Source: Pseudidiomarina piscicola
GTDB taxonomy: Bacteria; Pseudomonadota; Gammaproteobacteria; Enterobacterales; Alteromonadaceae
Direction of reading: 5' to 3'
NCBI RefSeq assembly: GCF_902806985.1
Contig: NZ_CADCXY010000005.1
Location: 1 to 64,000, forward strand
DNA length: 64,000 nt
A model generated the notes under the pieces. The model saw nothing but the letters and a program-made list of their open reading frames with translations, was not told the DNA's origin and ran no database searches. This document shows positions 9,852-30,448 of the stretch, in pieces; position 1 is the first letter of the stretch, and every line of letters starts with the position of its first letter. Made by a program: the position numbers and the translations under genes.

Positions 9852-9870
9852 TAAGGCAGTTTTATGAAAA

Positions 9871-11178: not shown

Positions 11179-11250
11179 AGTTAAGTGTTACAAACACCTG
11201 TTTCAATTATCGAGCGCAACATTAAGCGGTATTGCCTACAAGTTTTTTTT

Positions 11251-11268: not shown

Positions 11269-11277
11269 TTTAGAAAG

Positions 11278-14200
11278 ATGACAACATCTCTGCGATTTTC
11301 CCGCACCGCAAGTGCTATCGCAATTGCTCTAGGCTTAGCCTCGACAACTGCAATAGCACAAGATACCTCGGCATCTTTGCGAGGCGAAATTTTAGGTCCA
11401 CAAGGTAATGGCGCTGCCAATACCACAGTTGTGATTAAGCACATGCCTTCAGGTTCAACCACTGAAGTCACAACTGACAGTTCTGGTACCTTTATTGCAA
11501 GCGGTCTTCGAGTTGGCGGTCCATACCGCATTACGTTTGACTCTGATGTTTACCAAGATGCCCAGTATTCAGAAGTATTCCTGAAACTTGGTGAAACCTT
11601 CCGGTTAAATGCCCAATTGGAAGCGAATGATGTTGAACGTATTACCGTAACCGGCCAAGCGATCAACTATGCTCAACTGAACAACGGCTCAAGCAGCTCG
11701 TTCGGTGAAGAGCAAATTCAGTCGTTACCTACTTACAGCCGCGACTTGAAAGAAATTGTTCGCCTAAACCCGTTAGCGACCCAACTCGGCGACGGTGACC
11801 AACTTGTTGTTGCAGGTAACAACCCTCGTTACAACTCAATCACCGTTGACGGTATTGCGCAGAACGATGATTTTGGCTTGAACAGCAACGGTTACCCAAC
11901 CCAAGGCTCGCCAATTTCTATCGACGCGATTGAGCAAATCACCGTTGATGTTGCGCCTTTTAACGCAAAAGATACCAACTTTACCGGCGCTAAAGTTAAC
12001 GCTGTAACTAAGTCTGGTACCAACGAATTAAGCGGCTCAGTATTCTATCAATACACCAGTGACTCGCTTGCTGGCGATGCAGAAGCATCAAAGTATGATG
12101 AAGACGCTTTACCACCTAACGTCGATTACGAAGAGAAAACCTTAGGCTTGAGCCTTGGTGGTCCAATCATCAAAGACAAGTTGTTCTTCTACGTAAACTA
12201 CGAAACCCAAGACGAAACCAATGCACCGTATCGCGGTCCTATTGGTTCTGATGCGGCCAACATTGCTAACATCACCAGCGAAGAACTCAACCAAGTTCTT
12301 ACCATCGCACGTGACGTTTATGGCTTAACTGATCAGCAATTGGGTGGCTGGAATATTCCTGCCGAAGAAGAAGACAACAAACTATTGGTGAAGCTTGACT
12401 GGAACGTCAGCAATGAACATCGTGCTGCCTTTACCTATCAACGCACCGACGGTAACTCTATTCGTAACCAGTACGGCGGCGACGGTACGCTTACCTTGTC
12501 ATCAAGCTGGTACAACAATGAACAGATCTTAGACGCATATGCCGTTCAAGTTTACTCTAACTGGAGCTCGAACTTCTCGAGTGACATTAAGCTTTCTTAC
12601 AAAGATGTTGAGTCTATCCAAGATCCACTAGCGGGCCGCACCTTAGGTATGGTTACCGTTGAAGTGGGTGGCCGAAACGCTATTGAGTTTGGCCCAGATT
12701 ACTCTCGTCACGCGAACGAAGGTGAGAACTCAACTTTAGAACTGCAATTAAACGGTGAATACCTGTTAGGCGACCACGCAATTGGCTTCGGCTATGCGTT
12801 CTCAGAAACTGACATCTATAACCTGTTTGTGCAAAACGCATTAGGTTCGTGGGAATTCGATAGCATCGAAGACTTTGAGAACCGTGAAGCTGGTAGCTTC
12901 TACTATGCAGGTAGCTTAACTGGCGACATCAACGATGCCGCGGCTAACTTTACGCAAGGTACGCAAGCGCTATACATTCAAGACACTTGGCAGCCAACGT
13001 GGGACCTAGAGCTTATGTTTGGTCTGCGTTACGAGCGTATGCATGCTGAAGACAAGCCAGCCTACAACGAAAAGTTTGCGGCTCGCTACGGCTTCGCAAA
13101 TACTGAAAACCTCAACGGTAAAGATTTGTTCTTACCACGCGTAGGTTTCAAGTATCAATTAACGGACGATGTTCGTGTTCGCGGTGGATTTGGTCGTTAT
13201 GCAGGTGGCCGACCTAATGTTTGGGTTTCTAATTCATACACCAACAACGGTACCACTTTCTCACAGTTCGACCGTTACTTGTCTGATGTTCCATGGTCAG
13301 TATTCATGGACAACGTTGACCCAACTGAAGTACCACAAGCGGTACAAGATGGCCTAATTGCCGACGGTTATGTCAACGCTATCGACCCTGATTTCGACTT
13401 ACCATCAGACTGGCGTGGCAGCTTAGGTGTTGATTTCAACAGCTTTAGCATTCCTGCCTTAGGCGATGACTGGTTTGCAAGCGTCGAATACATCTACACC
13501 CGTCGTAAAGACGATGTGCAGTGGAAAGACCTTTCACGCGTACCATTGTTAGACCAAAACGGTGAACCACGTACCACTGTCGATGGTGGCCGTATTATCT
13601 ACGTTGTTGATGACCCGCTTGACGATCACGAGCCACAAGGTGTGGGTGATCACGGTAACGTACAACGTTATGACCTATTGTTAACCAACGGTGACGGCGG
13701 TAAGAGTCAAATCTTCACCACTACCTTAGGTAAAGCATGGGACAACGGCTTTAGCATGCGTGCTAGCTACACCAACCAAGACATCGAAGAAGCGGTTGCC
13801 GGTAGCTCAAGCACTGCTATCTCGAACTACCGCTTCCCTGTTGCAATTGACCGTCAAAATGTCACCCCTGGCACAGCATCGTACCAGGTTGAGCATCGCT
13901 TCATGGCTGACCTAACCTACAAGACCGAAATCTTTAACGGTTACACGTCAACCTTTGGCCTGTTCTGGGAACGTTACTCTGGTCGTCCTTGGGGTTACGT
14001 CTATGACAGCTATGGCGACGTAAGCTTTGGTAACCAGCCGTTTGGTACTTTGGGTCAATCGTCAGTTTACCTGCCGTATATCCCAACCGGACCAAACGAC
14101 GCGGCCGTTGCCTATGAAGATAACTTCAGCTATGAACAGTTCATGGAGTATATCGAACGTGCTGGTCTTGGTGGCTACGAAGGTGGTTACTTACCACGTA

Positions 14201-14529
14201 ACACCGAGCGTGGTCCTTGGACAACGAACCTAGACTTCAAATATACCCAAGAATTACCTGGGTTTGCTGAAGGCCATAAAGGTGAGCTTTATATCAACGT
14301 TCGTAACCTGATCGCTATCTTCGATAAAGAAGCAGGCCAGAAGCACGTGTTGCCATATGGTGATAACGTACGCGAATTGGTTAGTGCATACATCAACGAC
14401 GACGGCCAGTACGTCTATGGCGTGCCTTATAACAACCGTGCCTTTGATGTTGTTACCCAAGCACCAACGCGCTACTTACCTGAGCGTTCAACATGGCAAG
14501 CGAAGATCGGTATCCGTTATCGTTTCTAA
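11278..14529 (+). CDS. TonB-dependent receptor, Oar-like, with N-terminal carboxypeptidase-regulatory-like domain
   Basis: A 1083-residue outer-membrane receptor for active uptake of an unknown ligand. ATG 11278 is chosen because AGGA lies nearby and it gives a signal peptide ending at AIA-Q (about residue 28). An upstream in-frame extension to 11185 lacks signal character. Domains are a carboxypeptidase-regulatory-like fold (about 30-115), the plug (about 120-270, with NPRYNSITVDG and DAIEQITVDVAPF), and a large beta barrel ending in the C-terminal Phe motif WQAKIGIRYRF. No Cys was seen in it. It is a paralogue of the receptor at 15227, has its own terminator, and is divergent from the phosphodiesterase lipoprotein gene. 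Confidence 0.92.
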   Translation: MTTSLRFSRTASAIAIALGLASTTAIAQDTSASLRGEILGPQGNGAANTTVVIKHMPSGSTTEVTTDSSGTFIASGLRVGGPYRITFDSDVYQDAQYSEVFLKLGETFRLNAQLEANDVERITVTGQAINYAQLNNGSSSSFGEEQIQSLPTYSRDLKEIVRLNPLATQLGDGDQLVVAGNNPRYNSITVDGIAQNDDFGLNSNGYPTQGSPISIDAIEQITVDVAPFNAKDTNFTGAKVNAVTKSGTNELSGSVFYQYTSDSLAGDAEASKYDEDALPPNVDYEEKTLGLSLGGPIIKDKLFFYVNYETQDETNAPYRGPIGSDAANIANITSEELNQVLTIARDVYGLTDQQLGGWNIPAEEEDNKLLVKLDWNVSNEHRAAFTYQRTDGNSIRNQYGGDGTLTLSSSWYNNEQILDAYAVQVYSNWSSNFSSDIKLSYKDVESIQDPLAGRTLGMVTVEVGGRNAIEFGPDYSRHANEGENSTLELQLNGEYLLGDHAIGFGYAFSETDIYNLFVQNALGSWEFDSIEDFENREAGSFYYAGSLTGDINDAAANFTQGTQALYIQDTWQPTWDLELMFGLRYERMHAEDKPAYNEKFAARYGFANTENLNGKDLFLPRVGFKYQLTDDVRVRGGFGRYAGGRPNVWVSNSYTNNGTTFSQFDRYLSDVPWSVFMDNVDPTEVPQAVQDGLIADGYVNAIDPDFDLPSDWRGSLGVDFNSFSIPALGDDWFASVEYIYTRRKDDVQWKDLSRVPLLDQNGEPRTTVDGGRIIYVVDDPLDDHEPQGVGDHGNVQRYDLLLTNGDGGKSQIFTTTLGKAWDNGFSMRASYTNQDIEEAVAGSSSTAISNYRFPVAIDRQNVTPGTASYQVEHRFMADLTYKTEIFNGYTSTFGLFWERYSGRPWGYVYDSYGDVSFGNQPFGTLGQSSVYLPYIPTGPNDAAVAYEDNFSYEQFMEYIERAGLGGYEGGYLPRNTERGPWTTNLDFKYTQELPGFAEGHKGELYINVRNLIAIFDKEAGQKHVLPYGDNVRELVSAYINDDGQYVYGVPYNNRAFDVVTQAPTRYLPERSTWQAKIGIRYRF

Positions 14530-14567
14530 GCAAACCCTGTTTGCATAATTAATGTGCAAAAATGTAC

Positions 14568-14600
14568 AAAAAGCCCTCGCATTTGCGGGGGCTTTTTTTT
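14568..14600 (+). terminator. Intrinsic terminator after the first Oar-like receptor
   Basis: AAAAGCCCTCGC, loop ATTT, GCGGGGGCTTTT and further Ts form a GC-rich hairpin with a U tract, 39 bp after the receptor stop and 36 bp before tadA. Confidence 0.9.
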
Positions 14601-14635
14601 ACAATGCGCGCCATTGCTTTCCAACGAGATAGCGA

Positions 14636-15124
14636 ATGGATCACCAACGCTTTATGCAGCGCACACTTGAACTTGCACGACAAGCTGAACAATTCGGCGA
14701 AGTGCCTGTCGGTGCGGTCGTGGTCCATGATAATCAAATTATTGGCGAGGGTTTTAATCAGGTCATTCACCTAAACGACCCCTCTGCTCATGCCGAAGCT
14801 CAGGCCATTCGTGCCGCCGGAAACCACCTCAACAATTACCGCCTAGTAAATACCACGCTTTATGTTTCTCTTGAGCCCTGTGCCATGTGTGCTGGGTTAA
14901 TTACTCATGCTCGCATTCAGACATTGGTTTTTGCTGCTAGTGATCCGCGCACTGGCGCCACGGGATCCGCGATAAATGTTCTGAACCATAGCTCTATGAA
15001 CCACAAAGTGCAGGTGATCGGTGGGGTGTTAGAAAACGAATCTGCCGCCCTGCTGCAAGGTTTTTTCCGGCAGCGCCGTAAACAAGCTGCGCTGGCTAAA
15101 AAGGTAAAGAATGATGCCAAATAG
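14636..15124 (+). CDS. tadA: tRNA-specific adenosine deaminase TadA
   Basis: TadA converts the wobble adenosine of tRNA-Arg(ACG) to inosine and is normally essential. The 162 residues contain the zinc-binding and catalytic deaminase motifs: HAE at 52-54 (zinc His, proton-shuttle Glu) and PCAMC at 81-85 (two zinc Cys). The length is normal. It lies alone between two paralogous receptor genes, downstream of a terminator, so it needs its own promoter in the 35-bp gap or read-through. The C-terminal tail is basic, as in relatives. Confidence 0.95.
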   Translation: MDHQRFMQRTLELARQAEQFGEVPVGAVVVHDNQIIGEGFNQVIHLNDPSAHAEAQAIRAAGNHLNNYRLVNTTLYVSLEPCAMCAGLITHARIQTLVFAASDPRTGATGSAINVLNHSSMNHKVQVIGGVLENESAALLQGFFRQRRKQAALAKKVKNDAK

Positions 15125-15201
15125 TTATTTCTTGACTACTATTTCATCAAGTTGTAATGCAAAACAATTAAGCTTTTCGCTGTCTATAAATCAATTTGTT
15201 C

Positions 15202-15219
15202 AAACCACAACCCAGGAAA
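15202..15219 (+). promoter_or_regulatory. Leader motif shared by two TonB-receptor genes, copy 2
   Basis: AAACCACAACCCAGGAAA, identical over 18 bases to 11251-11268, precedes ATG 15227. The sequences diverge immediately after the motif, before each start codon. Confidence 0.7.
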
Positions 15220-15226
15220 CAACATC

Positions 15227-18200
15227 ATGTTGAATAATAAACCCAGTCGAATTGCCGCGGCAGTCGCCCTAGCGATAGGTCTGTCTGCCACAGCAACAGC
15301 GCAAGAAACCTCTTCGAGCGTTCGCGGTGTCATTATTAGTGAGCAAACCGGTGAAGCGCTCAGCAACGCCTCTATTGTACTTACCGATGAGCGTACGGGC
15401 GCGTCTCGCACCCTAACAGCGAATGAAAATGGCTTATTCTCAGCACGAGGGCTCGCGGTAGGTGGTCCTTACACCTTAACCGTGACCGACAACATGGGTA
15501 ACGTTGAGCGCCGCGAAAACGTCTTCCTTACGTTGGGCGAAACGGAAAGCGTGAATATTGCTGTTGAACAACAGTCAGTCGAGCGTATTCAGGTAAGCGG
15601 CCGGGTATTGAACATGACCTCAGGTTCGAACAGCCCAAGTGCAACCTTTGGCTTGCGTGACCTAGAAGATGCGCCATCGGTCAACCGTGATATTAAAGAC
15701 GTAGTGCGCATCGATCCGCGCATGTACATTGATGAAAGCTTCTCGCGCGGCATTCAATGTGCCGGTGCCAACCCACGCTTCAATAGCTTAACCGTTGATG
15801 GTGTTCGTACCAACGATAACTTTGGTCTGAACTCGAGTGGTTATCCTACCGAGCGTATGCCTTTCTCTTACGACGCGATCGAACAGGTTGCTGTAGAACT
15901 GGCGCCGTTTGATGTGCAGTATGGTGGTTTTACCGCATGTAATATCAACGCAGTCACGAAGTCAGGTGAAAACGAAGTCTTCGGTAGTGTGTTCTTTGAT
16001 TACACCAATGACTCAATGCAAGGCGACACGCTCGAAGGCGATAACATCAACATCGGCGATTTCAGCGAGAAGCGCTACGGTTTCAACGCCGGTGGCGCTA
16101 TTGTCGAAGACAAACTGTTCTGGTTTGCGGCCTATGAAAAACTTGAAGGCGCAAATACCTTTGACCGTGGCCCTGAAGGTACCAATGCTGCCACCATCAT
16201 TGAAGGTGTCAGCCAGGCGGATGTTGAGCGAATCGCTGCCATTGCGCGCGACGTTTACGGTTTTGAGCCAGGTGGCTTCCCAGCGAGTCTCCCCGTTGAA
16301 GATGAAAAGTTCCTCGCCAAACTTGATTGGTACATCAATGATTCACATCGTGCATCGTTTACCTACAACTACAACGATGGCTACTCAATTGCACAGTCTG
16401 ACGGTGATGCCACTGAGCTTGAATTCTCTAATCACTACTATGAGCGTGGTTCAGAGTTCACCTCTTATGTCGCACAACTTTACTCAGACTGGACCTACAA
16501 CTTCTCGACCGAGTTACGGGTCGGCTACTCAGAGCTTGACGCTCGCGTACTGCCCTTAGGCGGCACTGAAGTCGGCGAAATTCAACTTGAATTAGGTCCG
16601 TCAGGGAATGCCGATGTTCCTACGGTTTACTTGGGTGCAGACGACTCTCGCCACTCGAATAAACTCAAATACGACACCACGTTCTTTAAACTAGCTGGTA
16701 CCTACTTGCTGGACGACCATACCTTGTCGTTTGGTATCGAAAGTGAAACTTACGATGTCTACAACCTATTCGTGCAAGAAACTCAAGGCGAGTTTATTTT
16801 CCGCTCGATTGATGACTTCGAAAACGCGGTACCCTATGCCATTACGTATGAAAATGCCGCCGGCACAAACAACCCAATCGACGGCGCAGGTGAGTTTGCT
16901 TACACCATCAATACCGCGTATGCGCAAGACGAATACTACTTCATTAACTATGACCTGACCCTGACGTTCGGCTTACGTTATGACTGGTACACCACAGATG
17001 ATGCGCCAGCCTATAACGCTGATTTCGCCAGCACCTATGGTTTTGGTAATGATGCCACCGTTGATGGTGAAGGCTTATTACAGCCACGCTTAGGTATGAA
17101 CTGGGTGGTTGATGACAACCTCGAAGTTCGCGGTGGTATTGGCTTGTACTCAGGTGGTAACCCGAACGTATGGCTGTCGAACAACTACTCGAACAACGGT
17201 ACCAAGTTGTACGAAGTGTACTGGCGTAACAGCAATGGCGAGTCGTTATTCGACATTCCACATGATGGCTCAGGTCGTCCACTATACGATATCCCGCAGG
17301 ATATGGTTGACGAGGTTGCAGCAGCCAACGGTGGCGGTCCGATTAACGTGTTAGACCCAGACTTCGAACTACCAAACGAATGGAAATACGCCTTAGGTGC
17401 GACTTACACCTTTGATAACGGCTACGTAGTAATGGCTGATGTTCTGCATTCGAAGAAAAATGATGCGGCAATTATTAGTGATTTACGTCGCACCCCAGCA
17501 GGCGGCTACGGCCCAGAAGCAGTAGGTCCTGACGGTCGTCCAATCTATCCTAGCCTTCCACCTAGCTACCTTGGTGGCCCAGTTGATGCCTTTATGCTGA
17601 CCAACGTTGACGGTGATTCAGGTAAGAGCACGAGTGTGTCACTGGCCTTAACCAAGCAACACGAATGGGGCTTGAACTGGACCTTAGGTTACGCCTACAC
17701 CAAGTCTGAAGATGTTAACCCGATGACTAGCTCGGTGGCCTACTCAAACTACACTAGCGTGGCGGTCTCTGACTTCCAAAATCCAGGCGTAGCAACCTCA
17801 AACTATGAGATACCGCACCGTTTCACATTCAATGCCCAGTATCGCACTGAGTTCTTTGATGGTTACGAAACAACCTTTAGTTTGTTCGGTCAAGCTAACA
17901 AAGGTCGGCCTTATAGTTTCGTCATGTCAGGCCCATCGGGCGACATCACTGGCGGCCGCCAGTTGTTCTATATCCCAACGGGTGCCGACGATGAAAACTT
18001 TGTGGCTGGCCCAGGCTTTGATACCGCAGGGTTCTTCGATTACCTAGAAGAAACAGGTTTAGCAGAACACGCTGGTGGTATCTCGCCGCGCAACGAGTTC
18101 AACAGCGACTGGTGGCAAAAAGTCGACTTCCGTGTTGAGCAAGAGTTTGCCGGTTTCGTCGATGGCCATAAAGCCAGTGCGTTCTTTGTTATTGATAACC

Positions 18201-18409
18201 TAAGCAACCTCATTAACGATGACTGGGGCGTGCTCTATGAGCGCAGCTTCCCACGCATGGTTAATATCGGCAACGTTGAGTACATCGACGATGGCTCTGC
18301 CGATGGCGCTTACCAGTACAACTCGTTCCGTGCACCTGAAAATGTACAGTCGCGAGTAGGTAGCCCATCTCTATGGAGCATCCGCGTTGGTATCAGCTAC
18401 GACTTCTAA
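15227..18409 (+). CDS. TonB-dependent receptor, Oar-like, second paralogue
   Basis: A 1060-residue outer-membrane receptor with the same plan as the gene at 11278: signal peptide ending ATA-Q, carboxypeptidase-regulatory-like domain (about 27-110), plug (NPRFNSLTVDGVRTNDNFGL and YDAIEQVAVELAPF), then a barrel ending IRVGISYDF. Unlike the first copy it has two Cys, one in RGIQCAGANP and one in FTACNINAV, both in the plug, which could form a disulfide. Start ATG 15227 has AGGA nine bases upstream. The ligand is not predictable. The two receptors may have divided substrates after duplication. Confidence 0.92.
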   Translation: MLNNKPSRIAAAVALAIGLSATATAQETSSSVRGVIISEQTGEALSNASIVLTDERTGASRTLTANENGLFSARGLAVGGPYTLTVTDNMGNVERRENVFLTLGETESVNIAVEQQSVERIQVSGRVLNMTSGSNSPSATFGLRDLEDAPSVNRDIKDVVRIDPRMYIDESFSRGIQCAGANPRFNSLTVDGVRTNDNFGLNSSGYPTERMPFSYDAIEQVAVELAPFDVQYGGFTACNINAVTKSGENEVFGSVFFDYTNDSMQGDTLEGDNINIGDFSEKRYGFNAGGAIVEDKLFWFAAYEKLEGANTFDRGPEGTNAATIIEGVSQADVERIAAIARDVYGFEPGGFPASLPVEDEKFLAKLDWYINDSHRASFTYNYNDGYSIAQSDGDATELEFSNHYYERGSEFTSYVAQLYSDWTYNFSTELRVGYSELDARVLPLGGTEVGEIQLELGPSGNADVPTVYLGADDSRHSNKLKYDTTFFKLAGTYLLDDHTLSFGIESETYDVYNLFVQETQGEFIFRSIDDFENAVPYAITYENAAGTNNPIDGAGEFAYTINTAYAQDEYYFINYDLTLTFGLRYDWYTTDDAPAYNADFASTYGFGNDATVDGEGLLQPRLGMNWVVDDNLEVRGGIGLYSGGNPNVWLSNNYSNNGTKLYEVYWRNSNGESLFDIPHDGSGRPLYDIPQDMVDEVAAANGGGPINVLDPDFELPNEWKYALGATYTFDNGYVVMADVLHSKKNDAAIISDLRRTPAGGYGPEAVGPDGRPIYPSLPPSYLGGPVDAFMLTNVDGDSGKSTSVSLALTKQHEWGLNWTLGYAYTKSEDVNPMTSSVAYSNYTSVAVSDFQNPGVATSNYEIPHRFTFNAQYRTEFFDGYETTFSLFGQANKGRPYSFVMSGPSGDITGGRQLFYIPTGADDENFVAGPGFDTAGFFDYLEETGLAEHAGGISPRNEFNSDWWQKVDFRVEQEFAGFVDGHKASAFFVIDNLSNLINDDWGVLYERSFPRMVNIGNVEYIDDGSADGAYQYNSFRAPENVQSRVGSPSLWSIRVGISYDF

Positions 18410-18438
18410 GTCGTAGCTCTTTACCCGCTTAGTGAAAT

Positions 18439-18472
18439 AAAAAACCCTCGCCTTAGCGAGGGTTTTCTTTTT
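18439..18472 (+). terminator. Intrinsic terminator after the second Oar-like receptor
   Basis: AAAACCCTCG, CCTTAG, CGAGGGTTTT and a T-rich tail form a strong hairpin. The A tract on the left arm makes it potentially bidirectional, so it may also serve the convergent purL gene. Confidence 0.9.
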
Positions 18473-18498
18473 GCTGTTGGCCTATCTGCTGTTACCGG

Positions 18499-21400
18499 TT
18501 AGCCGAGGTAAACTCGCGCATTTCGGAACATCCGCATCCATGGGCTATCTTCACCCCACTCGTCTGGGTGCCAACTATTTGCGACGGTTCTAAACACTCG
18601 CTCTGGGTGAGGCATCATAATAGATACGCGGCCATCAGCCGTAGTCAAACCGGTGATACCTTCAGGTGAACCGTTAGGGTTCGCTGGGTAGTCGGTGGCA
18701 ATACCGCCCTTGTTATTAACGTAGCGAAGTGCGACCAGTCCTTGCTCTTTAACCGTGGCCAAGTTGTTACCTTTAAATTCGGCACGACCTTCACCATGCG
18801 ACACAGCGATAGGCATTTTCGAGCCTTGCATACCGGCAAAGAACAACGATGGACTTTCCTGTACTTCGACCATGCTTACGCGAGCCTCAAAACGTTCTGA
18901 ACGGTTGGTTACGAAGTGCGGCCAAGCTTCTGCGCCTGGAATAAGCTCACGTAAATTAGAAAGCATTTGGCAGCCATTACAGACCCCAAGCGCAAAGGTT
19001 TTTTCACGCTCAAAGAACGCTGCAAATTGGTCGCGCGCACGGTTGTTAAACAGCACTGACTTCGCCCACCCTTCGCCGGCGCCAAGTACGTCGCCGTACG
19101 AGAAGCCGCCGCAAGCCACTAAACCGTGGAAGTCGTCTAAGCTGACTCGACCCGCGAGAATATCACTCATATGCACATCAATGGCGGCAAAACCGGCACG
19201 ATCGAACGCCGCGGCCATTTCAACGTGTGAGTTAACCCCTTGTTCTCGTAGTACCGCAACCACCGGATCACGGCCCGTATTAATATAAGGGGCAGCAATA
19301 TCTTCACTGGTATCGAAGCTAAGGTCCGCAAACAGTCCAGTATCATCACTACGTTGCTTCGCCGCAAACTCTTCATCGGCACACGCAGGGTTATCTCGCA
19401 AACGCTGCATTTGGTGGGTTGTTTCCGCCCATACCTTGCGATAATGGCTACGCGCACCTGTTAAGACATCCGTTCCTGCGCGTGTAAAGATCAGCTCATC
19501 TGCAGCAGTAACGTCGCCAAGAACTTTAACCGCCTCAGCTAAACCGGCATCACTGTAGGCCGCCACTACCTCATCAACTTTGTCGTTGTGTACTTGCAGT
19601 ACCGCACCCAGCTCTTCACTAAAGAGCGCAACCAAGTCGTCCGCGTGAACCTTATCAAGCGCCACTCGTGCGCCACAATGACCAGCAAAAGCCATTTCTG
19701 CGACAGTCACAAACAAACCACCGTCCGAGCGGTCATGGTACGCCAGTAATTTTTTGTCGCGGACCAGTCGTTGCGTCACCTCAAAAAACGCCTTTAAGGC
19801 CTTCGCATCGTCAACATCCGGGGTCGCATCACCTAGCTGGCGATAAACCTGCGCCAAGGCGGAACCACCAAGGCGTGTCTGACCATGCCCCAGGTCCACT
19901 AATAGCAACTGGCTTGGGCCTTTATCGGTACGTAATTGCGGCGTCACCGTACGGCGGACATCTTGTACTCGACCAAATGCTGTAATAACCAAGCTCAACG
20001 GCGCTGTAACCGCTTTGTCTTCACCATTTTGCTGCCATTGGGTTTTCATCGACATTGAGTCTTTACCGACCGGTATGGTGATTCCCAGTGCAGGGCAAAG
20101 CTCTTCCCCCACCGCTTTAACCGCTTCGTAAAGGCCAGCATCTTCGCCCGGGTGGCCTGCAGCGGCCATCCAGTTTGCCGAAAGTTTAATATGCTTCAAG
20201 TCGCCAATATCGGCCGCTGCTATATTGGTAAGTGCTTCACCTACCGCTATTCGAGCCGACGCACCATAATTTAACAGCGCTAATGGCGTACGCTCACCCA
20301 TCGCCATGGCTTCGCCCGCGTAGGTGTCATAACTTGCTGCCGTCACCGCCACATCAGCAACGGGGATCTGCCATGGTCCCACCATTTGGTCGCGCGCCAC
20401 CAAGCCGGTCACACTGCGGTCGCCAATAGTGATCAGGAAGGTCTTCTCGGCAATGGCTGGCAAACGCAATAACCGTTCTGCCGCTTCAGCCAAGTCGATA
20501 CCTGAGGTATTTAAGGCTTTACCCGTCGCCTGTTGACTCGCCACGTCGCGATGCATTTTAGGCACTTTGCCAAGGAGTACATTCAACGGCAAGTCGATTG
20601 GGGTCGACTCAAAATGACTATCAGTTAAGCTCAAATGCTCTTCTTCAGTGGCCTCACCGATCACCGCAAATGGCGCTCGTTCACGTTCGCAAATATCCGT
20701 AAATACTTGCATGTGTTCAGTGGCGATGGCCATCACATAGCGTTCTTGAGACTCGTTACACCAGATAGCTAGGGGGGACATGCCCGGCTCATCATTTGGT
20801 ATCTTACGTAACTCGAACTTGCCGCCACGACCACCATCGCTCACCAATTCAGGCATAGCGTTGGAAAGACCACCCGCACCTACGTCATGAATAAAAGCAA
20901 TAGGGTTTTTCTCGCCAAGCTGCCAGCACCGATCGATAACTTCCTGGCAGCGGCGCTCCATTTCTGGGTTATCACGCTGCACCGAGGCAAAGTCTAAATC
21001 TTCGCTTGAGGTGCCTGAGGCCATCGAAGACGCAGCACCACCGCCTAAGCCGATATTCATCGCCGGGCCACCTAACACCACAAGTTTTGCACCGACCGGA
21101 ATCTCGCCTTTTTCGACATGGTTTTCGCGGATGTTACCCATGCCACCGGCAATCATAATCGGCTTGTGGTAACCACGCACTTCGATGCCGTTATGGCTAT
21201 CAACTTGTTCTTCATAGGTACGGAAGTACCCCGTTAACGCAGGGCGCCCGAACTCATTGTTAAACGCCGCGCCACCGAGCGGCCCTTCCAGCATAATTTC
21301 AAGCGCTGTTACAATACGGTCAGGTTTGCCGAAATCTTCTTCCCATGGCTGTTCAAAGCCAGGGATCCTTAAGTTTGAAACGCTAAAACCAACTAAACCC

Positions 21401-22395
21401 GCTTTAGGTTTCGAGCCTCGACCGGTAGCGCCTTCATCACGGATCTCACCGCCAGAACCTGTTGCGGCACCGGGGAAAGGAGAAATCGCAGTCGGGTGAT
21501 TATGCGTTTCAACTTTCATTAAAATATGTACCGGCTCGTGGAAGTAGCTATACTCCCCTGCCGCCTGCGTTCCTGCAGGATAAGGATAAAAACGTCCAGC
21601 TTCGGAACCGACCATCACCGCAGCGTTATCTTTGTACGCCGACAATACGTGTTCTGGTGTCACTTCGAAGGTGTTTTTAATCATTTTAAACAGCGACTTC
21701 AGCTGTTCTTTGCCGTCAATGGTCCAGTCCGCGTTAAATATTTTATGACGACAGTGCTCTGAGTTTGCTTGTGCAAACATATAGAGTTCGATGTCGTTCG
21801 GGTTACGGCCTAAATGACTAAAGCTTTCAAATAAATAGTCGATTTCATCATCTGCAAGCGCTAAGCCCATCTCGATATTGGCGCTCTTTAATGCTTCACG
21901 GCCGCCCGCTAAAATATCAACCGAGCTCAGTGGTGCCGGCTCTGCGGTCGCAAATAAACGTTCAGCATGCTGCAAGTCTTCGATCACCATTTCGGTCATA
22001 CGGTCATGCAAAATAGCTTGAGCATTCTGCACTTGCTGGTTATCAAGCTCACCATCAAGGTAATACGCAACGCCACGTTCTAACCGGCGAACCTTCTCTA
22101 GTCCGCAGTTATGTGCAATATCCGTGGCTTTCGACGACCAAGGCGAAATAGTGCCCGCGCGTGGCACCACTGCCAGCAACCGCCCTTCAGGCAAATGTTG
22201 CGCTAACGCCGGACCATAGGTAAGTAGTTTGTGTAAGACCTGCTGTTCGTCATTCGACAGTGCTGCTGTCGCATCCACGAAATGCATATACTCGGCATAG
22301 AGAGCTCGCACCGGAACGTCCGCTTGACGTAACCGCTGCATAAGTTTTTCAGTCCGAAATTCAGATAGGGCTGGGGCGCCGCGTACTATCTCCAC
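18499..22395 (-). CDS. purL: Phosphoribosylformylglycinamidine synthase (FGAR amidotransferase) PurL
   Basis: Catalyses the ATP- and glutamine-dependent conversion of FGAR to FGAM in purine synthesis. The 1298 residues are the single-chain gammaproteobacterial form: N-terminal PurS-like domain, linker, two AIRS-type halves ([20 protein letters not shown] and [12 protein letters not shown]), and a C-terminal glutamine amidotransferase with nucleophile Cys in [10 protein letters not shown] and triad MPHPERVFR. Start GTG 22395 has GGAG eight bases upstream. Its proximity to guaA and guaB is notable, since all three genes serve GMP synthesis. About 100 bp separate it from the small upstream frame. 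Confidence 0.97.
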
Positions 22396-22494
22396 AGATC
22401 ATTCTCCAGGTTGGCAGTGGATGGTTTTCACCGACTTTTGAAGCCGCGTATTATAGTCTTTTTTTGTCTTCTTAACTACCGCACACAAAGCACG

Positions 22495-22614
22495 TCAATC
22501 TTCTTTTTCACAGAGCCGAAACCATTTCTGGCGGCGTTCGTTCATCAGGTGACGTTGCTTGCGATTCCACGCCCTACGGCGGGCGTGAGGCACTAGTCGT
22601 TTTCTTGTGCGCAT
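22495..22614 (-). CDS. Putative 39-residue basic peptide overlapping the mltF stop codon
   Basis: The minus strand reads TAATG at the mltF end, so the ATG of this frame (22614-22612) shares one base with the mltF stop, a typical coupled start. The product is very basic: it opens MRTRKRLVPHARRRAWNRKQ and ends RLCEKED before TGA at 22497-22495. I do not recognise a family. The last codons of mltF give little Shine-Dalgarno sequence, so translation would depend on coupling. It could instead be chance. The composition (Arg, Lys, Gln, Trp) would suit nucleic-acid or ribosome binding, which is only a guess. Confidence 0.45.
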   Translation of the reverse strand: MRTRKRLVPHARRRAWNRKQRHLMNERRQKWFRLCEKED

Positions 22615-24014
22615 TAATCTACCTCGTCTCCGCTACCTAACGGCAGCGAAATTTCTAGCGGTTGGGCAGGAATTCGTCCTCGTTCATCCAGCCAAACTAA
22701 GGTGTCGTAGTAGCGACGTATGTTTCCTACATATCGCACAGGTTCATCACCACGCGCAAAACCGTAACGCGTTTGTCGGTAATATTTCTTTTGCCTTAAT
22801 AAAGGTAGTCGTTTTCTTACATCAATCCAGCGATCAGGGTCACCGCCCTGACGTTCAGTGAGCACACGCGCATCTTCCAAATGCCCGTAGCCTATATTGT
22901 AAGCAGCTAAGGCAAACCACGTGCGGTCGGGTTCGGGTATACGAGCCGGTATGGTATCGAGCATTCGTTCAAAGTAGCGGGCGCCGCCGCGAATGCTTTC
23001 TTCAGGGTTTAGCCGACTCGTTACGCCCATCGCCTCGGCAGTGGGTAGCGTGAGCATCATCAGGCCGCGCACACCGGTGGCCGACACTGCCCGCGGATCC
23101 CAATGACTCTCTTGATAAGAAATAGCCGCCAACAAGCGCCAGTCTAAACGGCCTGAATGCTCGACAAAAAAGTCACGGTATTTTGGTAAGGTGGTTTGCA
23201 CAGCATCAATAAAAAAGCTGGTATCGACATAGTTAAACTGTGAGACATGACCAAAGTGTTGGTCAATTAAACGCTCAAGTTCGCCTGATTGCCTTAAAGT
23301 TCCGAAGAACTGAATGACTTCGGCGTAAAGTGACGCATCACGTTCGGCATCGAGCATCCAGCTTACATCTAGATTGTCGCGCACGGTGAAGGCGATACTA
23401 ATATTGGGAAAGTAACGACGCTGCATATCTAGAATATTGCTATCGGCGATGGTGAACGCGATCTCACCATCAATCACCGCACGCAGCAGCTCTGCAGCAT
23501 CATGTTCGTTGGTCGCCCGCCACTTGAGCTGTGGAAAGCTCTTGCTATTGCGTTGCAGCCAATCGTGATGGCTACTTCCCGCGACCACCACAACTTCGTC
23601 TTCTACTTGGCTCCAATCGCGCGGTCGATCGCGAGACCCTTGCCGATAAACTAGGCGCTGGGCAACTTCTTGATAAGGGGGGCCGAAGCGATAATTACGA
23701 TCCCGTCGGGGGGTGCGGTCTAAACCTGCGGCCACAAGGTCAACTTGGCCGGTGTCGATGAGACGAAATAAATCATTGACGTTGTATCTGGAAACAATTT
23801 CAAGCTCAACATCGAGCTGTTCGGCAAAGGTTGCTGCTAGCGCATATTCCAGCCCACCTTCACTTTCAAATTCGTGATAGTAGGTGGTTGGGCCTAATAA
23901 GGTACCCACACGCAGCACACCGCGTTGTTGAATTTCAGTTAGGTGATCAGGCTGCGGTTGCGGCGCGCAGCCAGCAAGTAGCACCAAGGCTAACAAGCTA
24001 AGCCAACGCGCCAC
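22614..24014 (-). CDS. mltF: Membrane-bound lytic murein transglycosylase F
   Basis: MltF cleaves peptidoglycan glycan strands, forming 1,6-anhydromuropeptides. The protein starts with a short lipoprotein signal (lipobox LLAGC), followed by a periplasmic solute-binding-type domain (about 35-260) and an SLT domain (about 285-420) with catalytic Glu in SYQESHWDPRA, then GLMMLT and AAYNIGYGHL. GTG 24014 is preferred over an in-frame GTG 24029, because GGGAG in the end of guaA sits eight bases before it and the signal peptide then begins cleanly. It lies 5 bp after guaA. About 466 residues is close to E. coli MltF. Confidence 0.93.
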   Translation of the reverse strand: MARWLSLLALVLLAGCAPQPQPDHLTEIQQRGVLRVGTLLGPTTYYHEFESEGGLEYALAATFAEQLDVELEIVSRYNVNDLFRLIDTGQVDLVAAGLDRTPRRDRNYRFGPPYQEVAQRLVYRQGSRDRPRDWSQVEDEVVVVAGSSHHDWLQRNSKSFPQLKWRATNEHDAAELLRAVIDGEIAFTIADSNILDMQRRYFPNISIAFTVRDNLDVSWMLDAERDASLYAEVIQFFGTLRQSGELERLIDQHFGHVSQFNYVDTSFFIDAVQTTLPKYRDFFVEHSGRLDWRLLAAISYQESHWDPRAVSATGVRGLMMLTLPTAEAMGVTSRLNPEESIRGGARYFERMLDTIPARIPEPDRTWFALAAYNIGYGHLEDARVLTERQGGDPDRWIDVRKRLPLLRQKKYYRQTRYGFARGDEPVRYVGNIRRYYDTLVWLDERGRIPAQPLEISLPLGSGDEVD

Positions 24015-24019
24015 GTCAG

Positions 24020-25594
24020 CTACTCCCACTCGATAGTGGCGGGAGGTTTGCCTGAAATATCGTAGACAACACGAGAAATGCCATCGATTTCATTAATAAT
24101 TCGGTTCGAGACCGTTTCGAGTAGCTCATAAGGTAAATGTGCCCAACGCGCGGTCATAAAGTCAATAGTTTCCACCGCTCGAATCGCAATCACCCAGTCA
24201 TATTTACGGGCATCGCCCATGACACCTACCGAGCGAACCGGCAAGAACACTGCAAATGCTTGGCTCACTTCATGATATAAGCCGGCTTTACGTAGTTCCG
24301 TAATAAAAATATGGTCGGCACGACGCAAGAGCTCGCAATATTCTTTTTTCACCTCGGCCAACACCCGAACACCTAAGCCTGGCCCTGGGAATGGATGACG
24401 GTAGAGCATGTCGTACGGTAAGCCTAGCTCTAAGCCAATTTTGCGCACTTCATCTTTGAATAGTTCGCGTAGCGGCTCAACCAGATCCAATTTCATTTCT
24501 TCTGGTAATCCACCGACATTATGGTGTGATTTAATAACGTGAGCTTTCCCGGTTTTCGAGCCAGCAGACTCAATCACATCAGGGTAAATAGTGCCTTGCG
24601 CTAAATAAGAAACGTCGCGAATACTGGTCGCTTGCTCGTCAAAAATCTCAATAAAAACACGCCCAATGATCTTACGTTTCGCTTCAGGGTCGTGCTCACC
24701 TGCTAAGGCATCCAAAAAGCGATCTTCAGCGTCTACGTGCACAATGTTGAGACCATAATGGTCGCCAAACATCTCCATTACCTGTTCGGCTTCCTGCCAA
24801 CGCAATAAGCCATTATCGACAAACACGCAGGTAAGCTGCTCACCTATGGCACGATGCAATAACATTGCGGTGACCGAGCTGTCGACCCCACCAGAAAGCC
24901 CTAATACGACTTTACCACTGCCGACTTGCTCACGAATTCGTGCCACCGCATCGTCGATAATGTGAGCCGCTGTCCAATTCGTTTCGCATTCACAAATCTC
25001 TACCACAAAGTGTTCCAGCATGCGCATACCCTGGCGGGTATGGGTGACTTCTGGGTGGAACTGCACACCATAGTAATCACGATCTTCGTCTGCCATCGCT
25101 GCAATTGGGCAGGTTGCCGTCTGCGCCACGGTTTGAAAACCAGGTGGTAATTCAATGACCTTGTCGCCATGGCTCATCCATACGTCAATTTCTGGATTAC
25201 CATTGTCATGGACACTATCTTCAATATGATGAAATAACGAACAAGGAGCGGTGCGCTCGACACGAGCATAGCCAAATTCACGCTCTAGTGAACCTTGCAC
25301 CTTACCACCGAGTTGTGCGGCCATGGTTTGCATGCCGTAGCAAACGCCAAACACCGGTACACCGGCTTCAAAAACATAGTCTGGCGCTCGTGGCGAGTCT
25401 TGTTCTGTAACCGACTCAGGACCACCCGATAAGATAATACCGTTGGGATTGAAGTTTTTGATGTCTTCGGCATCAACATCCCACGCCCATAATTCACAGT
25501 ACACGCCAATTTCACGAATACGGCGTGCGATCAGCTGCGTATACTGTGAGCCAAAATCTAATATTAAAATTCGATGTGCATGAATATCTTGCAT
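24020..25594 (-). CDS. guaA: GMP synthase (glutamine-hydrolysing) GuaA
   Basis: Converts XMP to GMP with ATP and glutamine. The 524 residues include the amidotransferase (nucleophile Cys85 in GVCYGMQ, then HPEVTHT), the PP-loop LSGGVDSSV of the ATP pyrophosphatase domain, and the C-terminal dimerisation domain ending KPPATIEWE, typical of the family. It lies 6 bp after guaB and has no obvious Shine-Dalgarno sequence of its own, consistent with coupling to guaB. guaBA is a widely conserved operon. Confidence 0.97.
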
Positions 25595-25600
25595 GTTGGT

Positions 25601-27070
25601 TTAACCCATTCGATAGTTTGGTGCTTCTTTGGTAATTTGCACATCGTGCACGTGAGACTCGCCCATACCAGCTGATGTTACACGGACAAATTGCGGTTTA
25701 GTGCGCATTTCTTTAATCGTTGCACTACCGGTGAGCCCCATAGCAGAGCGCAGCCCACCCATTTGCTGGTGAATAATCGTCGCCATTGGACCTTTATAAG
25801 CAACACGCCCTTCAATACCTTCCGGCACTAACTTTTCGGCTTCGTTGGTTGCTTGGAAGTAACGATCTGATGAGCCGTTACGCTGATCCATCGCACCTAA
25901 ACTACCCATGCCACGGTAAGATTTATAGTAACGCCCTTGGTAAAGTTCCACTTCACCCGGTGATTCTTCAGTACCTGCCAACATGCTGCCGACCATCACA
26001 CAGTCGGCACCAGCGGCAATGGCCTTCGCAATATCACCAGAAAAACGGATACCGCCATCGGCAATCACTGGTACCCCAGTACCTTTCAAGGCATCTACCG
26101 CATCACTAATAGCAGTGATCTGCGGTACACCACACCCGGTAACGATACGTGTCGTACAAATGGAGCCTGGGCCAATACCTACTTTGACTGCATCCACACC
26201 GGCATCCGCCAGTGCTTTAGCGCCAGCGCCCGTCGCGACATTGCCCGCGATTAGCTGTAAATTTGGGTATTCCTTGCGCACATAGGCAACGCGATCGATG
26301 ACGCCTTGCGAATGACCGTGCGAGGTATCTATCAACAACACATCGACGCCAGCCTCAACCAGCGCGGCAATACGCTCTTCTGTGCCTGGACCAACGCCTA
26401 CCGCAGCACCTACACGAAGACGACCTAACTCATCTTTACAGGCATTAGGTTTGTTTTCTGCTTTGGTGAAATCTTTTAAAGTGATCATGCCACGCAAATG
26501 AAAGCTATCGTCCACAACTAAGATTTTCTCAATTCGATGTTTGTGCATCAAACCAAGTATTTCTTCACTTTGCGCACTTTCTTTCACAGTAATTAAGCGT
26601 TCTTTCGGCGTCATGATGGTGCCGACGCGTTTGCTATTATCACTTTCAGCACGAGCATCGCGACCGGTAATAATACCGACTAACTCGCCGCTATTTTCAA
26701 CCACGGGGAAGCCATGAAACCCATGTTCCACACTTAATGCTCGAATTTCACCAAGTGTTGTATCAGGAGTGACTGTGACAGGGTCGGAAACCATTCCACT
26801 TTCGTATTTTTTGACTTTACGAACATGGGCAGCTTGTTCACTAATCGTCATATTCTTATGAACAAAACCAAGTCCGCCTTCTTGCGCCAGCGCGATGGCC
26901 AATGCTGCTTCGGTTACCGTATCCATGGCGGCTGAAACCATTGGAATCTTCAGTTCGATTCCACGCGTAAGGCGCGTGCGCAGGTCAGCGTTATGAGGTA
27001 AAACAGTCGAGTGACCGGGGACGAGTAAAACATCGTCGAAGGTAAGAGCTTCTTGAGCGATTCGTAGCAT
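25601..27070 (-). CDS. guaB: Inosine-5'-monophosphate dehydrogenase GuaB
   Basis: Oxidises IMP to XMP with NAD, the committed step to GMP. The 489 residues hold an N-terminal barrel start ([15 protein letters not shown]), two CBS domains inserted at about 95-200, and the catalytic loop [11 protein letters not shown] with the nucleophilic Cys, followed by MGSLGAM and the mobile flap near the C-terminus. GGGA lies eight bases before ATG 27070. It is first gene of guaB-guaA, divergent from xseA with a 98-bp shared promoter region. Confidence 0.97.
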
Positions 27071-27168
27071 GGCAACATCCCACTAGCTGAGTTAATGTTG
27101 CGGGCAGATTTTACTCGTAAAGCGCTTTTCAGTAAACTGATTTTTTTACTTACCATGAGTTTTCTAAC

Positions 27169-28509
27169 ATGAGCAAAGCCGCAATATTCACTGTAGCCCA
27201 ACTAAATGCTGAAGTGCGTCAAGTACTTGAACGTGGCTTTGGCTCAATTTGGCTAGTTGGCGAAATTTCGAACTTTGCCGCCCCAGGCTCAGGACACTGG
27301 TACTTTACGTTAAAAGATGAGCGCGCACAGGTGAAAGGAGCCATGTTCCGTAACGCCAATCAGCGCGCTAAAGTGCGGCCACAAAGCGGTATGCAGGTGT
27401 TGGTGCGAGCCAAAATCACTCTCTACGAACCGCGCGGTGACTACCAGCTGATAGTAGAACATATGGAGGATGCCGGCGCTGGGCTATTACAGCAGCGTTA
27501 TGAGCAACTCAAACACAAACTACAAGCACAAGGCTTATTTGCCGCAGAACACAAACAACCGCTCCCCACAGAAATTCGTCGGGTGGGTGTGATTACTTCG
27601 CCAACTGGTGCGGCTATCCGCGATGTTCTTGCGGTACTGCAGCGCCGCGACCCAAGTGTTGAAGTCATTATTTACCCCAGCGCCGTACAAGGGCAAAAAG
27701 CCGTCGACGACCTACTTTTCGCCTTGCAGCGTGCATGTGCTCGGAACGAGGTTGATGTGCTGCTGCTGACCCGCGGCGGCGGTTCGCTCGAAGACTTATG
27801 GTGCTTCAACGATGAGCACTTAGCACACGCACTGCACAGCTGCCCACTGCCAGTGATTAGTGCGGTTGGCCATGAAGTTGATTTTACCATTGCCGATTAT
27901 GTGGCTGACGTGCGTGCACCAACACCTTCCGCTGCCGCTGAATTAGTAAGCCGTGATCAACGTGAGGTTTTGCAGCGCCTACGGCAACTAGACCATCGCT
28001 TAATTCAACATTGGCAACGGCAGCGTAGCTTTCTTCAGCAGACCTTGCAGCATTGGCACAATCGCTTGCAGCAGCAACATCCACAGCGGCGCTTGCAGCA
28101 GAATAGCCAACGGGTCGACGAGCTTTACGCTCGCGCATCGGCAGCGCTGCAACGCACGCAGCGCCAGACCCAACAACGCTTAACGCAAAGCCATCAACGC
28201 TTGCAGTCGGTGCACCCGCAGCGTCAACTGGTGCCGCTGGCACAACAACTCGAGCAGTTGCAAAAGCGCAATAGCCAGGCAATACGTCAAACATTAAAAA
28301 TATGGCAACAGCGGCAAGCCTCGACGTTGCAAAACTTGCAAATTGTAAGCCCGCTACAAACCATTGCTCGAGGTTATGCGGTGGTGCAAAATCAACAAGG
28401 TGAGTTAATTCGTCAACCACAACAACTCGGCGCCGGCGAAGCTTTTTCGGTTAAAGTTGCAGAGGGCGAATTCTGGGCTACAAAACAGTCTGAAGAGACT
28501 GCAGAATAA
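27169..28509 (+). CDS. xseA: Exodeoxyribonuclease VII large subunit
   Basis: The large subunit of exonuclease VII, which degrades single-stranded DNA in both directions with XseB. The 446 residues show an N-terminal OB fold (about 5-100), a catalytic domain with [30 protein letters not shown] and [22 protein letters not shown], and a long Gln-rich coiled coil (about 265-400). The small subunit gene is at 39751 here, as usual unlinked. Its 3' end overlaps the convergent AEC permease gene by 32 bp. Divergence from guaB is as in E. coli. Confidence 0.96.
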
Positions 28510-29410
28510 AGTACCACAGCGGCAAAGTTAAAAAGCACAACAGTACGCCATAGCCAACCACTGCCGCCGACAGTGTCGGTGCTAACCCAGCCATGATCGC
28601 TAAGGCGCCCGCCGATATCATGGCTGGCATTGCGGCTTCCATAATGGTTACCTGCACCGCGAGTTGCTCTAATCCAAAGCCCATCAGTATCAGTAAAGCC
28701 AACAAAGGCATCACCCCTAGCTTGAGCCCCAATGCCCAACCAAGCGGACCACGATCTTCCTGAGGTAACCTAAAGCGCAACTGAAAACCAACGGCCACCA
28801 TAATCACCGGCACCAGCGTAATAGCTAATGAGTCGATAAATTGCTGCAGTACCGCCGGGTAGCCGAAATCACGAACCATGAAAGCGATAACCAATGCCAC
28901 AAAGGGCGGAAAACGAAGGATTTTCCAGGCGATGGTCCTCGCCGACGGGCGCTTGGCGGACTCACCCGGCTGGTGACTATAAATAGCCGCAATAATGGTG
29001 GCATAAATCGATAAAATGAAAAAAGAACCAAGCTGGTCATAAAGCAGTGCGTAAGGAATGCCTTCGGCGCCAAAAAAGGCTTCAACCATCGGAAAACCAA
29101 CAAACGATGTGTTGCCAAGTGGAATCACTATTAGCATCGCCCCGGTTGTCGCTCGCGGCCAACCACGCCAGCGCGCCAGAGTCAGTACCATCGGCACCGT
29201 TAACAACAACAGTAACCAAGGGATTAAAGCGGGATATAGCAGTTCTTTGCCGAACGTCAGCAGCGGTATTTTTTGCAGTACAAGGGCTGGTAATGCTACA
29301 TAAATAACGTAAGCATTGAGGATTTGTCCGGTATTCTGAGCAAATTGCTGACTACGCCGCAGCAGTAGGCCAATTATCACGTAGCCAGCAATAAAAACAA
29401 AGTTTGCCAT
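28478..29410 (-). CDS. AEC-family (auxin efflux carrier-like) membrane permease
   Basis: About ten hydrophobic segments across 310 residues and the two-half layout of the AEC family (Pfam Mem_trans) support the call. Bacterial members transport organic anions such as malate or have no assigned substrate, so function stays open. The ATG overlaps the porin stop codon as TAATG at 29412-29408, implying translational coupling to a porin with a PhoB-type promoter. The 3' end overlaps xseA by 32 bp on the other strand. Landmarks include [20 protein letters not shown] and the later [17 protein letters not shown]. Confidence 0.85.
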
Positions 29411-30357
29411 TAGAACTTGTGCTCAATCCCTATCGCTACGTAGCGCTGCTTGGCTTCAATCGTCTGGCGATCTCGTCCGGTGTACCAAGTGTAGATTTTA
29501 GTGCTACTGGCCAACTTGTAATCAACGCCCAGCGAAAGTGCGTCGTCTTCACCGTTGCCAAAGTCTATCACTTGGTATTGCGCTTTAAGGCGGAATTGTC
29601 CTAACGGTTGTTGCACACTTGCGACAAAGCCATCTGCCTCGGCGGTGCCATCAACACGCTCTTGCTGCTGCCACATTAAACCAAACATGGTATCGCTCAC
29701 TTTGGTATAACCCACCAGCCGTTCAATGTCATAGCCGTCGACCTCGCGATCCATAGCGGCACCAAAGTAGTAACCCGTGGCATCAAGCGCTTCGTCACCA
29801 TAGCTCAACGCCATGGAGTATCCGTCATCCTGTGTATCACCTTCGCTAAGCACGATACTTCCGGCAACTTGAAAGTGATTAAAACTAGGAGAATAGTAGG
29901 AAATGGTATTACTGGTGCGATTCTCGCCTTCAAATAAGCCTTTTACGTCGGCCACATAATCGCTAAATTGATCAATATCGCCTTGCACGGTTTTCAGTAC
30001 CGTATCACGTCGACCGACTGTCAGTTCGCCAAAGCTACCTCGTAGCCCGACAAACTGGTTACGTGATTTTAAATTGTCATCCCCACCGAGGTCGGCCAAA
30101 TCGACTTGCCACTCCAGTTGATAAATAACTTCCAAATCATCGGTAATTTTGCGCCCACCCTTCACACCAATACGAGACGAATTACTCTCTAATTCAGTGT
30201 CGGTGCTTGCGCCGTCATCATTGCTTTGCAGCGAGACATTGGCTTTACCGTAAAAGTCGAACGTAATTTCCTCGTCATCGCTACTCTGCTGCGCCATAGC
30301 CGAAGCGCTTAACAATGCCAACGGAAGCATCATCACAGCTACATAGTTGAATGTCAT
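29410..30357 (-). CDS. Outer-membrane general porin (Gram-negative porin family), PhoB-box promoter
   Basis: A beta-barrel porin of about 315 residues. ATG 30357 is chosen because AAGG lies nine bases upstream and it produces a signal peptide ending AMA-Q. A frame from 30456 would start within the promoter. The mature start EITFDFYGKANVSLQ, the motif SRIGVKGGRKITDDLEVIYQLEW and FVGLRGSFGELTVGRRDT are typical of porin family 4, and it ends with Phe (GIEHKF). The many acidic residues do not obviously suggest an anion-selective channel, but regulation by a PhoB box would resemble PhoE or OprP. It is coupled to the AEC permease downstream. Confidence 0.9.
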   Translation of the reverse strand: MTFNYVAVMMLPLALLSASAMAQQSSDDEEITFDFYGKANVSLQSNDDGASTDTELESNSSRIGVKGGRKITDDLEVIYQLEWQVDLADLGGDDNLKSRNQFVGLRGSFGELTVGRRDTVLKTVQGDIDQFSDYVADVKGLFEGENRTSNTISYYSPSFNHFQVAGSIVLSEGDTQDDGYSMALSYGDEALDATGYYFGAAMDREVDGYDIERLVGYTKVSDTMFGLMWQQQERVDGTAEADGFVASVQQPLGQFRLKAQYQVIDFGNGEDDALSLGVDYKLASSTKIYTWYTGRDRQTIEAKQRYVAIGIEHKF

Positions 30358-30414: not shown

Positions 30415-30448
30415 ATAGTAAGGTCGGTTTATGACAGTTTGATGAACC
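30415..30448 (-). promoter_or_regulatory. PhoB box plus -10 element upstream of the porin gene
   Basis: Read on the minus strand, 30448-30431 is GGTTCAT-CAAA-CTGTCAT, one perfect and one partial PhoB unit. Exactly 10 bp later comes TACTAT (30420-30415), a good -10 hexamer. The spacing equals that at pstS, pstC and phoB. The predicted leader to ATG 30357 is about 50 bases. Confidence 0.7.

Follow-up and report, generated by a model that had tools for sequence, protein, structure and literature searches.

A predicted PhoB-controlled porin gene and its neighbouring AEC carrier gene in Pseudidiomarina and Idiomarina

Results

A porin gene and an AEC carrier gene lie in the same window as the pho cluster

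The window that we analysed, a 64-kb stretch of the Pseudidiomarina piscicola genome, contains all the genes of a phoBR-pstSCAB-phoU cluster on its minus strand, with PhoB boxes present: phoU (980–1708; PF01895), pstB (1721–2539; PF00005), pstA (2569–4224; PF00528), pstC (4239–6482; PF00528), pstS for the phosphate-binding protein (6673–7689; PF12849) and, side by side, the genes for the sensor kinase PhoR (7770–9077; PF11808) and the response regulator PhoB (9097–9783; PF00072 and PF00486). A block of about 19 kb (9871–28477), which includes guaBA and xseA, separates phoB from a gene on the same strand for a 310-residue carrier of the AEC family (Mem_trans; 28478–29410; PF03547, E = 2.4e-29). 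Directly upstream of this gene, again on the minus strand, is a gene for a 315-residue Porin_4 protein with a general diffusion porin fold (29410–30357; PF13609, E = 2.8e-36). The porin gene starts with an ATG at 30357, and its TAA stop codon (29412–29410) overlaps the ATG of the AEC gene (29410–29408) as TAATG (29408–29412, minus strand), with one A common to both.

The porin scores 126.3 bits against a Porin_4 cut-off of 27, and at E 0.001 its Pfam matches are Porin_4 and Porin_1 only. An OprP-type identity is ruled out, as the protein has no match to the Pfam family of that type, Porin_O_P. Its predicted structure (pLDDT 87.5) has 17 strand segments and a single helix at residues 120–128, the place expected for loop 3, so that the model shows the barrel typical of porins, built of about 16 β-strands and with a loop 3 that folds inward. 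The folds that it matches best are those of Omp32, BpsOmp38, OmpU and PorB (TM scores 0.7–0.77), with the malate complex of Omp32 as the top match; by sequence, the nearest solved relative is PorB. Five basic residues (R62, R99, K122, K139 and R147) are invariant in 28 relatives, and R62 falls at position 38 of Omp32, provided that the match begins without a gap. Arg38 of Omp32 is an eyelet residue. Such residues could contribute to the basic constriction by which a phosphoporin favors anions, but the mature porin is acidic overall, with 51 Asp and Glu residues versus 26 Lys and Arg residues, and its gene is the only one in the whole genome to exceed the Porin_4 cut-off. We noted one sub-threshold Porin_4 match in the same genome (L097; G000:C3:189755-190006), within a 751-residue frame whose product is perhaps another outer-membrane barrel.

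Phosphate-starvation porins are a kind that is already known, the Escherichia coli example being PhoE, which is controlled by PhoB. The window porin is like PhoE and VCA1008 of Vibrio cholerae in being a general porin, in its broad fold class and, as predicted here, in its control by phosphate starvation, whereas its nearest solved relatives (PorB, Omp32 and OmpU) set it apart from PhoE. VCA1008 is an anion-selective porin made in phosphate limitation according to the available part of its source (PMC13157583), and it is by this description alone that we liken the window porin to it.

The AEC family (TC 2.A.69) includes the malonate carrier MdcF and the plant PIN auxin carriers. The window protein scores 102.5 bits against the PF03547 cut-off of 25.7, and residues 6–300 of its 310 are covered; like those carriers, it matches PF03547 over nearly its full length. 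By profile it also matches PIN1 (E = 0.01) and PIN8 (E = 0.026) weakly. Its structure model, with a pLDDT of 46, is too poor to use. In the available parts of two papers, a bioinformatic study of the AEC domain gives the substrates of bacterial members as unknown (PMC9330825), and AEC proteins are treated as possible malonate carriers (PMC3652848). Because of this literature, our best guess by analogy is that the substrate may be a small organic anion, which could be carried in either direction.

The porin gene is preceded by a PhoB box

Upstream of the porin gene lies a PhoB box, GGTTCAT-CAAA-CTGTCAT (30431–30448, minus strand), which agrees with the consensus CTGTCATAWAWCTGTCAY at 14 of 18 positions and is followed, exactly 10 bp past its end, by a −10 hexamer, TACTAT (30415–30420). 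In PhoB-activated promoters the box, with a −10 hexamer about 10 bp downstream of it, replaces the −35 element. The box also has the pair of 11-bp direct repeats, with halves of the TGTCAT type, by which a Pho box is defined in the available part of PMC4415409. It scores 19.1 bits by a matrix derived from phoB promoters (described below), a score that none of 200 shuffles reached.

When both strands of the window were searched for sites agreeing with the consensus at 14 or more of 18 positions, five were found, and each of them precedes phoB (two sites), pstS, pstC or the porin gene. All are on the minus strand. The pstS box (7718–7735; 14/18) is followed after 10 bp by TAGTAT, and the pstC box (6542–6559; 15/18) after 10 bp by TATACT. 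The phoB box (9834–9851) has AATAAT 10 bp past it and is adjoined upstream by a second site (9853–9870), the pair scoring 15 and 14 of 18; this tandem arrangement (9834–9870) suggests a four-half-site array like those upstream of the porin genes of relatives. The first-pass annotation of this DNA had described the porin box, its 10-bp distance to TACTAT and the TAATG overlap, and all of these agree with the coordinates when read on the minus strand; its statement that the same spacing recurs at pstS, pstC and phoB is likewise borne out.

Across the whole genome the consensus does much less well. Allowing up to 3 mismatches, it has 8 matches, versus 7 for a backwards control pattern, and we therefore rejected agreement with the consensus as sufficient proof of a site. 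The 8 include the sites of pstC and phoB but not the porin box, which has 4 mismatches. Six matches lie beyond the window, of which the five that we inspected are all within open frames, the sixth overlapping one of these. Such counts favor the reading that the porin box is a site for some other OmpR-type regulator, or a product of chance. Against this reading, all five sites in the window precede pho genes or the porin gene, and the comparison with other genomes described next makes it highly improbable.

The box is conserved and goes with the porin gene

The AEC gene is present in 25 of the 26 Pseudidiomarina genomes, the one that lacks it being an 88%-complete genome, and in 24 of these 25 a porin gene is located directly upstream of it on the same strand. 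A consensus site of 14–16/18 is found upstream of the porin gene in all 24 pairs, and in every one a TANNNT hexamer follows the aligned box at a distance of exactly 10 bp, a pattern that was drawn up after viewing the alignment and that applies to its Pseudidiomarina rows. Within the porin upstream region, conservation is concentrated in the block containing the box, and little else is conserved. Most Pseudidiomarina relatives have extra half-sites that flank the box on either side at 11-base intervals, and in several genomes an adjacent repeat outscores the aligned box against the consensus. In the window genome the flanking half-sites are degenerate, and for this reason its box is among the weakest in the genus. 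A site of 14–16/18 also lies upstream of phoB in all 26 genomes.

We built a matrix from these 26 phoB promoters, with sites chosen by consensus, and scored the 250 bp upstream of each gene, counting as a success any score that was equalled in no more than 2 of 200 dinucleotide shuffles. Among the porins that adjoin an AEC gene, 30 of 36 pass (23/23 in Pseudidiomarina and 7/13 in Idiomarina-type genomes); one further Pseudidiomarina row (L054), with a run of N, was excluded. Porins of other Alteromonadaceae loci that have no AEC neighbor pass in 14 of 19 cases, these being the 19 best-scoring such loci and not a random draw, and one pho-linked porin (L151) scores −2.6 bits and has no box by the matrix. 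For lone AEC genes, the matrix finds a PhoB box in the 250 bp upstream of none of 18. Across the family, the PhoB box belongs to the porin gene and not to the AEC gene.

There is one lone AEC gene, in Bowmanella (L068), with a 14/18 site about 270 bp upstream, beyond the 250 bp that were scored with the matrix; 1 of 100 shuffles does as well, and it is the only one of the lone AEC genes compared to have such a PhoB-like consensus site. A reversed consensus was also tried as a control for the upstream scans, and was rejected, since the repeats themselves give it partial matches, with scores of 12–14 at porins.

The box is eroded in 8 of the 13 Idiomarina-type porins (L061, L063, L064, L069, L076, L078, L080 and L081), although these genes are right beside phoB. 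Their best sites score 13–14/18, and by the matrix 0.1–7.6 bits versus 19.1 in the window; since the window box is also just 14/18, the contrast rests on the matrix.

While the consensus is powerless at the scale of the genome, conservation decides that the porin box is real. Its presence at a fixed 10-bp spacing in 24 of 24 Pseudidiomarina pairs, and its resemblance to the sites that precede phoB in those genomes, both argue against a different regulator or chance. Control of the porin by PhoB, as the first-pass annotation proposed, is well supported by these sequence comparisons: the box persists in related genomes, and the matrix search that it suggested upstream of Idiomarinaceae porin–AEC pairs was positive for the large majority of them.

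The two genes overlap only in the window species

Among the pairs compared, the TAATG overlap occurs in the window genome only. The other 23 Pseudidiomarina pairs and the 13 Idiomarina-type pairs all have a spacer of 30–106 bp between the porin and AEC genes, so the conserved stop–start overlap expected of a coupled operon is absent outside the window species. The claim that the pair is translationally coupled thus holds for the window species, and we reject it as a general trait.

The spacers of relatives contain a recurrent element. The motif TANACT is present in 28 of 34 distinct spacers (mean 2.8 and maximum 9 in mononucleotide shuffles) and absent from the other six, and in 27 of the 28 it lies 35–47 bases before the AEC start; in many Pseudidiomarina spacers it appears as GTAnACTATnGCCATC. 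No −35 element is evident for it in the spacers, and it was not reported by promoter scans of four regions, where promoter-like sites were not clearly more numerous than expected. We read TANACT as probably the −10 of a promoter belonging to the AEC gene, so that the AEC gene of these relatives is probably transcribed at least partly on its own.

Some spacers also have hairpins. In eight Idiomarina-type spacers (L060, L062, L072, L076 and L078–L081), a strong hairpin of the GTAGCCTGACA...TGTCAGGCTAC type runs into a TACACT element; these hairpins have no T run and so are perhaps attenuators or repeats. In Pseudidiomarina planktonica (L057, bases 4895–5000), a hairpin with seven T after it extends precisely to the ATG of the AEC gene.

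The window species lacks the spacer, most likely through a deletion of about 85 bases, a size that we estimate from the 84-base spacers of the nearest relatives. Since the stop and start codons overlap, a promoter cannot fit between the genes, and with the spacer gone the AEC gene here most likely needs the porin transcript for its expression. The main alternative source of AEC transcripts in this genome is a promoter-like site within the porin gene (29522–29495; 9/12), one of five such sites found versus 2.7 expected (sd 1.7), which is no clear excess. The proposal of the first-pass annotation that the AEC gene shares the PhoB control of the porin may accordingly hold in full in the window species alone; it would apply at most in part to the relatives, with TANACT in their spacers, and the lone AEC genes have no box by the matrix.

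The pair belongs to the pho cluster in Idiomarina-type genomes

We examined gene neighborhoods in the GTDB family, in which 66 of 196 genomes have an AEC match and 143 have a porin match. The AEC neighborhoods cover the best 30 matches (the remaining matches have E-values from 1.2e-87 to 2.9e-4), and the porin neighborhoods likewise cover the best-scoring loci among the porin matches. Among these best-match loci, adjacency of the porin and AEC genes is limited to Pseudidiomarina and Idiomarina-type genomes, and there are 23 AEC loci (18 distinct upstream stretches) with no adjoining porin. We found no pho gene in the examined flanks of the lone AEC genes. Among the 19 porin loci that have no AEC gene, the porin is directly followed by phoB in three and by pstS in one, and in two pstB-phoU precede it. 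Two other apparent pstB matches, with 31% (L070) and 27% (L152) identity, were set aside as general ABC ATPases.

Gene order in the Idiomarina-type genomes is uniform: all 13 distinct loci read porin-AEC-phoB-phoR. They come from seven named Idiomarina, one Idiomarinaceae MAG, and L076 and L078–L081, which we typed by the genus code that they share with two genomes whose loci match those of named Idiomarina. In the eight loci with 5 kb of flanking sequence, pstS and pstC come next, and a site matching 14 or 15 of 18 consensus positions lies between the AEC gene and phoB. The pho cluster is thus extended upstream by the porin and AEC genes in these genomes, whereas in Pseudidiomarina the pair shares its strand with phoB but lies 15–23 kb from it, as measured in the 22 of 25 genomes where a single contig carries both; the distance in the window is 19 kb. 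The intervening block of about 19 kb is a feature of Pseudidiomarina, in which xseA and guaBA lie downstream of the pair, and not of the Idiomarina-type genomes. P. planktonica is intermediate, with Idiomarina-like genes upstream and Pseudidiomarina-like xseA-guaBA downstream; ExbB, ExbD, TonB and TPR, which precede the pair, were named by eye. One record named Idiomarina loihiensis SN11 (L049) has the gene order of Pseudidiomarina and groups with it in the AEC tree, and is probably misnamed.

In a tree of AEC sequences with a distant Planctomycetota row left out, the 37 Idiomarinaceae rows fall on one side of a branch with support 99/94, in agreement with the history proposed in the Discussion. 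When that row is kept, the Idiomarinaceae do not form one clade and three label changes are needed.

The placement of the AEC gene between the porin gene and phoB in 13 of 13 Idiomarina-type loci lends support to a phosphate-related role for the carrier. With both genes in the pho cluster, one could imagine, as the first-pass annotation guessed, uptake of a phosphorylated organic anion across two membranes, through the porin in the outer and the AEC carrier in the inner. We consider this specific route very unlikely: no organophosphate carrier is among the AEC members named in the available parts of PMC3652848 and PMC9330825, and neither the residues of the carrier nor its unusable model offers anything in its favor.

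Pseudidiomarina taiwanensis (G023; L055 4700–5001, L026) has an AEC gene beside xseA, with a TPR-like gene (identified by eye) upstream, and has no porin match anywhere in its genome. A species that lacks the porin and kept the carrier fits a reading in which only the porin is controlled by PhoB, and the AEC gene is an unrelated bystander with its own promoter and no part in phosphate starvation, held in place by inertia, whose TAATG overlap in the window species results from a neutral deletion. The TANACT element in 28 of 34 spacers, the strong hairpins in Idiomarina-type spacers and the lone AEC genes, with neither a box by the matrix (0/18) nor a pho gene in their examined flanks, all point the same way. 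The pair, however, stayed joined when it was separated from phoB, and is found in two genomic settings, and every Idiomarina-type locus has its AEC gene within the pho cluster. On balance we think it doubtful, though worth serious consideration, that the carrier is only a bystander.

Discussion

The reading that we prefer is a joint one, in which the porin is driven by PhoB, the AEC gene became its neighbor in an ancestor that Idiomarina and Pseudidiomarina share, and in the window species the AEC gene rides on the porin mRNA; we put its probability at about 0.6. The porin would be the phosphate-starvation porin of the pho genes of Alteromonadaceae. As the conserved promoter architecture suggests, phosphorylated PhoB would bind the direct repeats and recruit RNA polymerase to the −10 hexamer ten bases downstream, and the porin would then raise the permeability of the outer membrane to phosphate, for import by PstSCAB. 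In the simplest history, a porin gene stood at the phoB cluster, the AEC gene was inserted between it and phoB in the common ancestor and has mostly remained beside the porin gene since, and a block later came to lie between the AEC gene and phoB in Pseudidiomarina; the synteny is plain, and this order of events is what it suggests. In most species a weak promoter within the spacer would still serve the AEC gene, which would be driven by PhoB in part at most. In the window species it would be read through from the porin mRNA, with translation restarting at TAATG, and so come under the control of phosphate. The carrier itself might move a small organic anion, as do those members of its family that transport malonate and malate.

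How tightly the two genes form a unit is a separate matter. That they remained together when parted from phoB speaks for a unit; the eroded boxes of 8 of 13 Idiomarina-type porins, and the AEC gene of P. taiwanensis without a porin, speak against a fixed one.

We know of no AEC neighbor for the PhoB-controlled porins PhoE and VCA1008. In the open-licence literature that we searched, we found no description of an AEC carrier beside a PhoB-driven porin. Unlike MdcF and the PIN proteins, the window carrier adjoins a porin with a PhoB box, and its Idiomarina-type counterparts are inside the pho cluster. As far as our searches go, a pho gene cluster in which an AEC gene separates phoB from a porin of this kind is an undescribed variant.

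More tentatively, the AEC carrier may be a working part of the phosphate-starvation response of Idiomarinaceae, forming with the porin a path for a small organic anion across both membranes. If so, this path could, for example, export carboxylates that free bound phosphate, or import the remains of cleaved phosphate esters. The carrier would be, to our knowledge, the first of its family to be tied to the Pho regulon, and the window species would show it fully captured once its own promoter had been lost. The stable place of the AEC gene inside the phosphate gene cluster lets a search for its substrate start from a definite condition, namely phosphate starvation, and with the porin as a partner. 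The window species offers a natural promoter-loss experiment, as the AEC gene of its relatives seemingly has a promoter of its own and here would have only that of PhoB.
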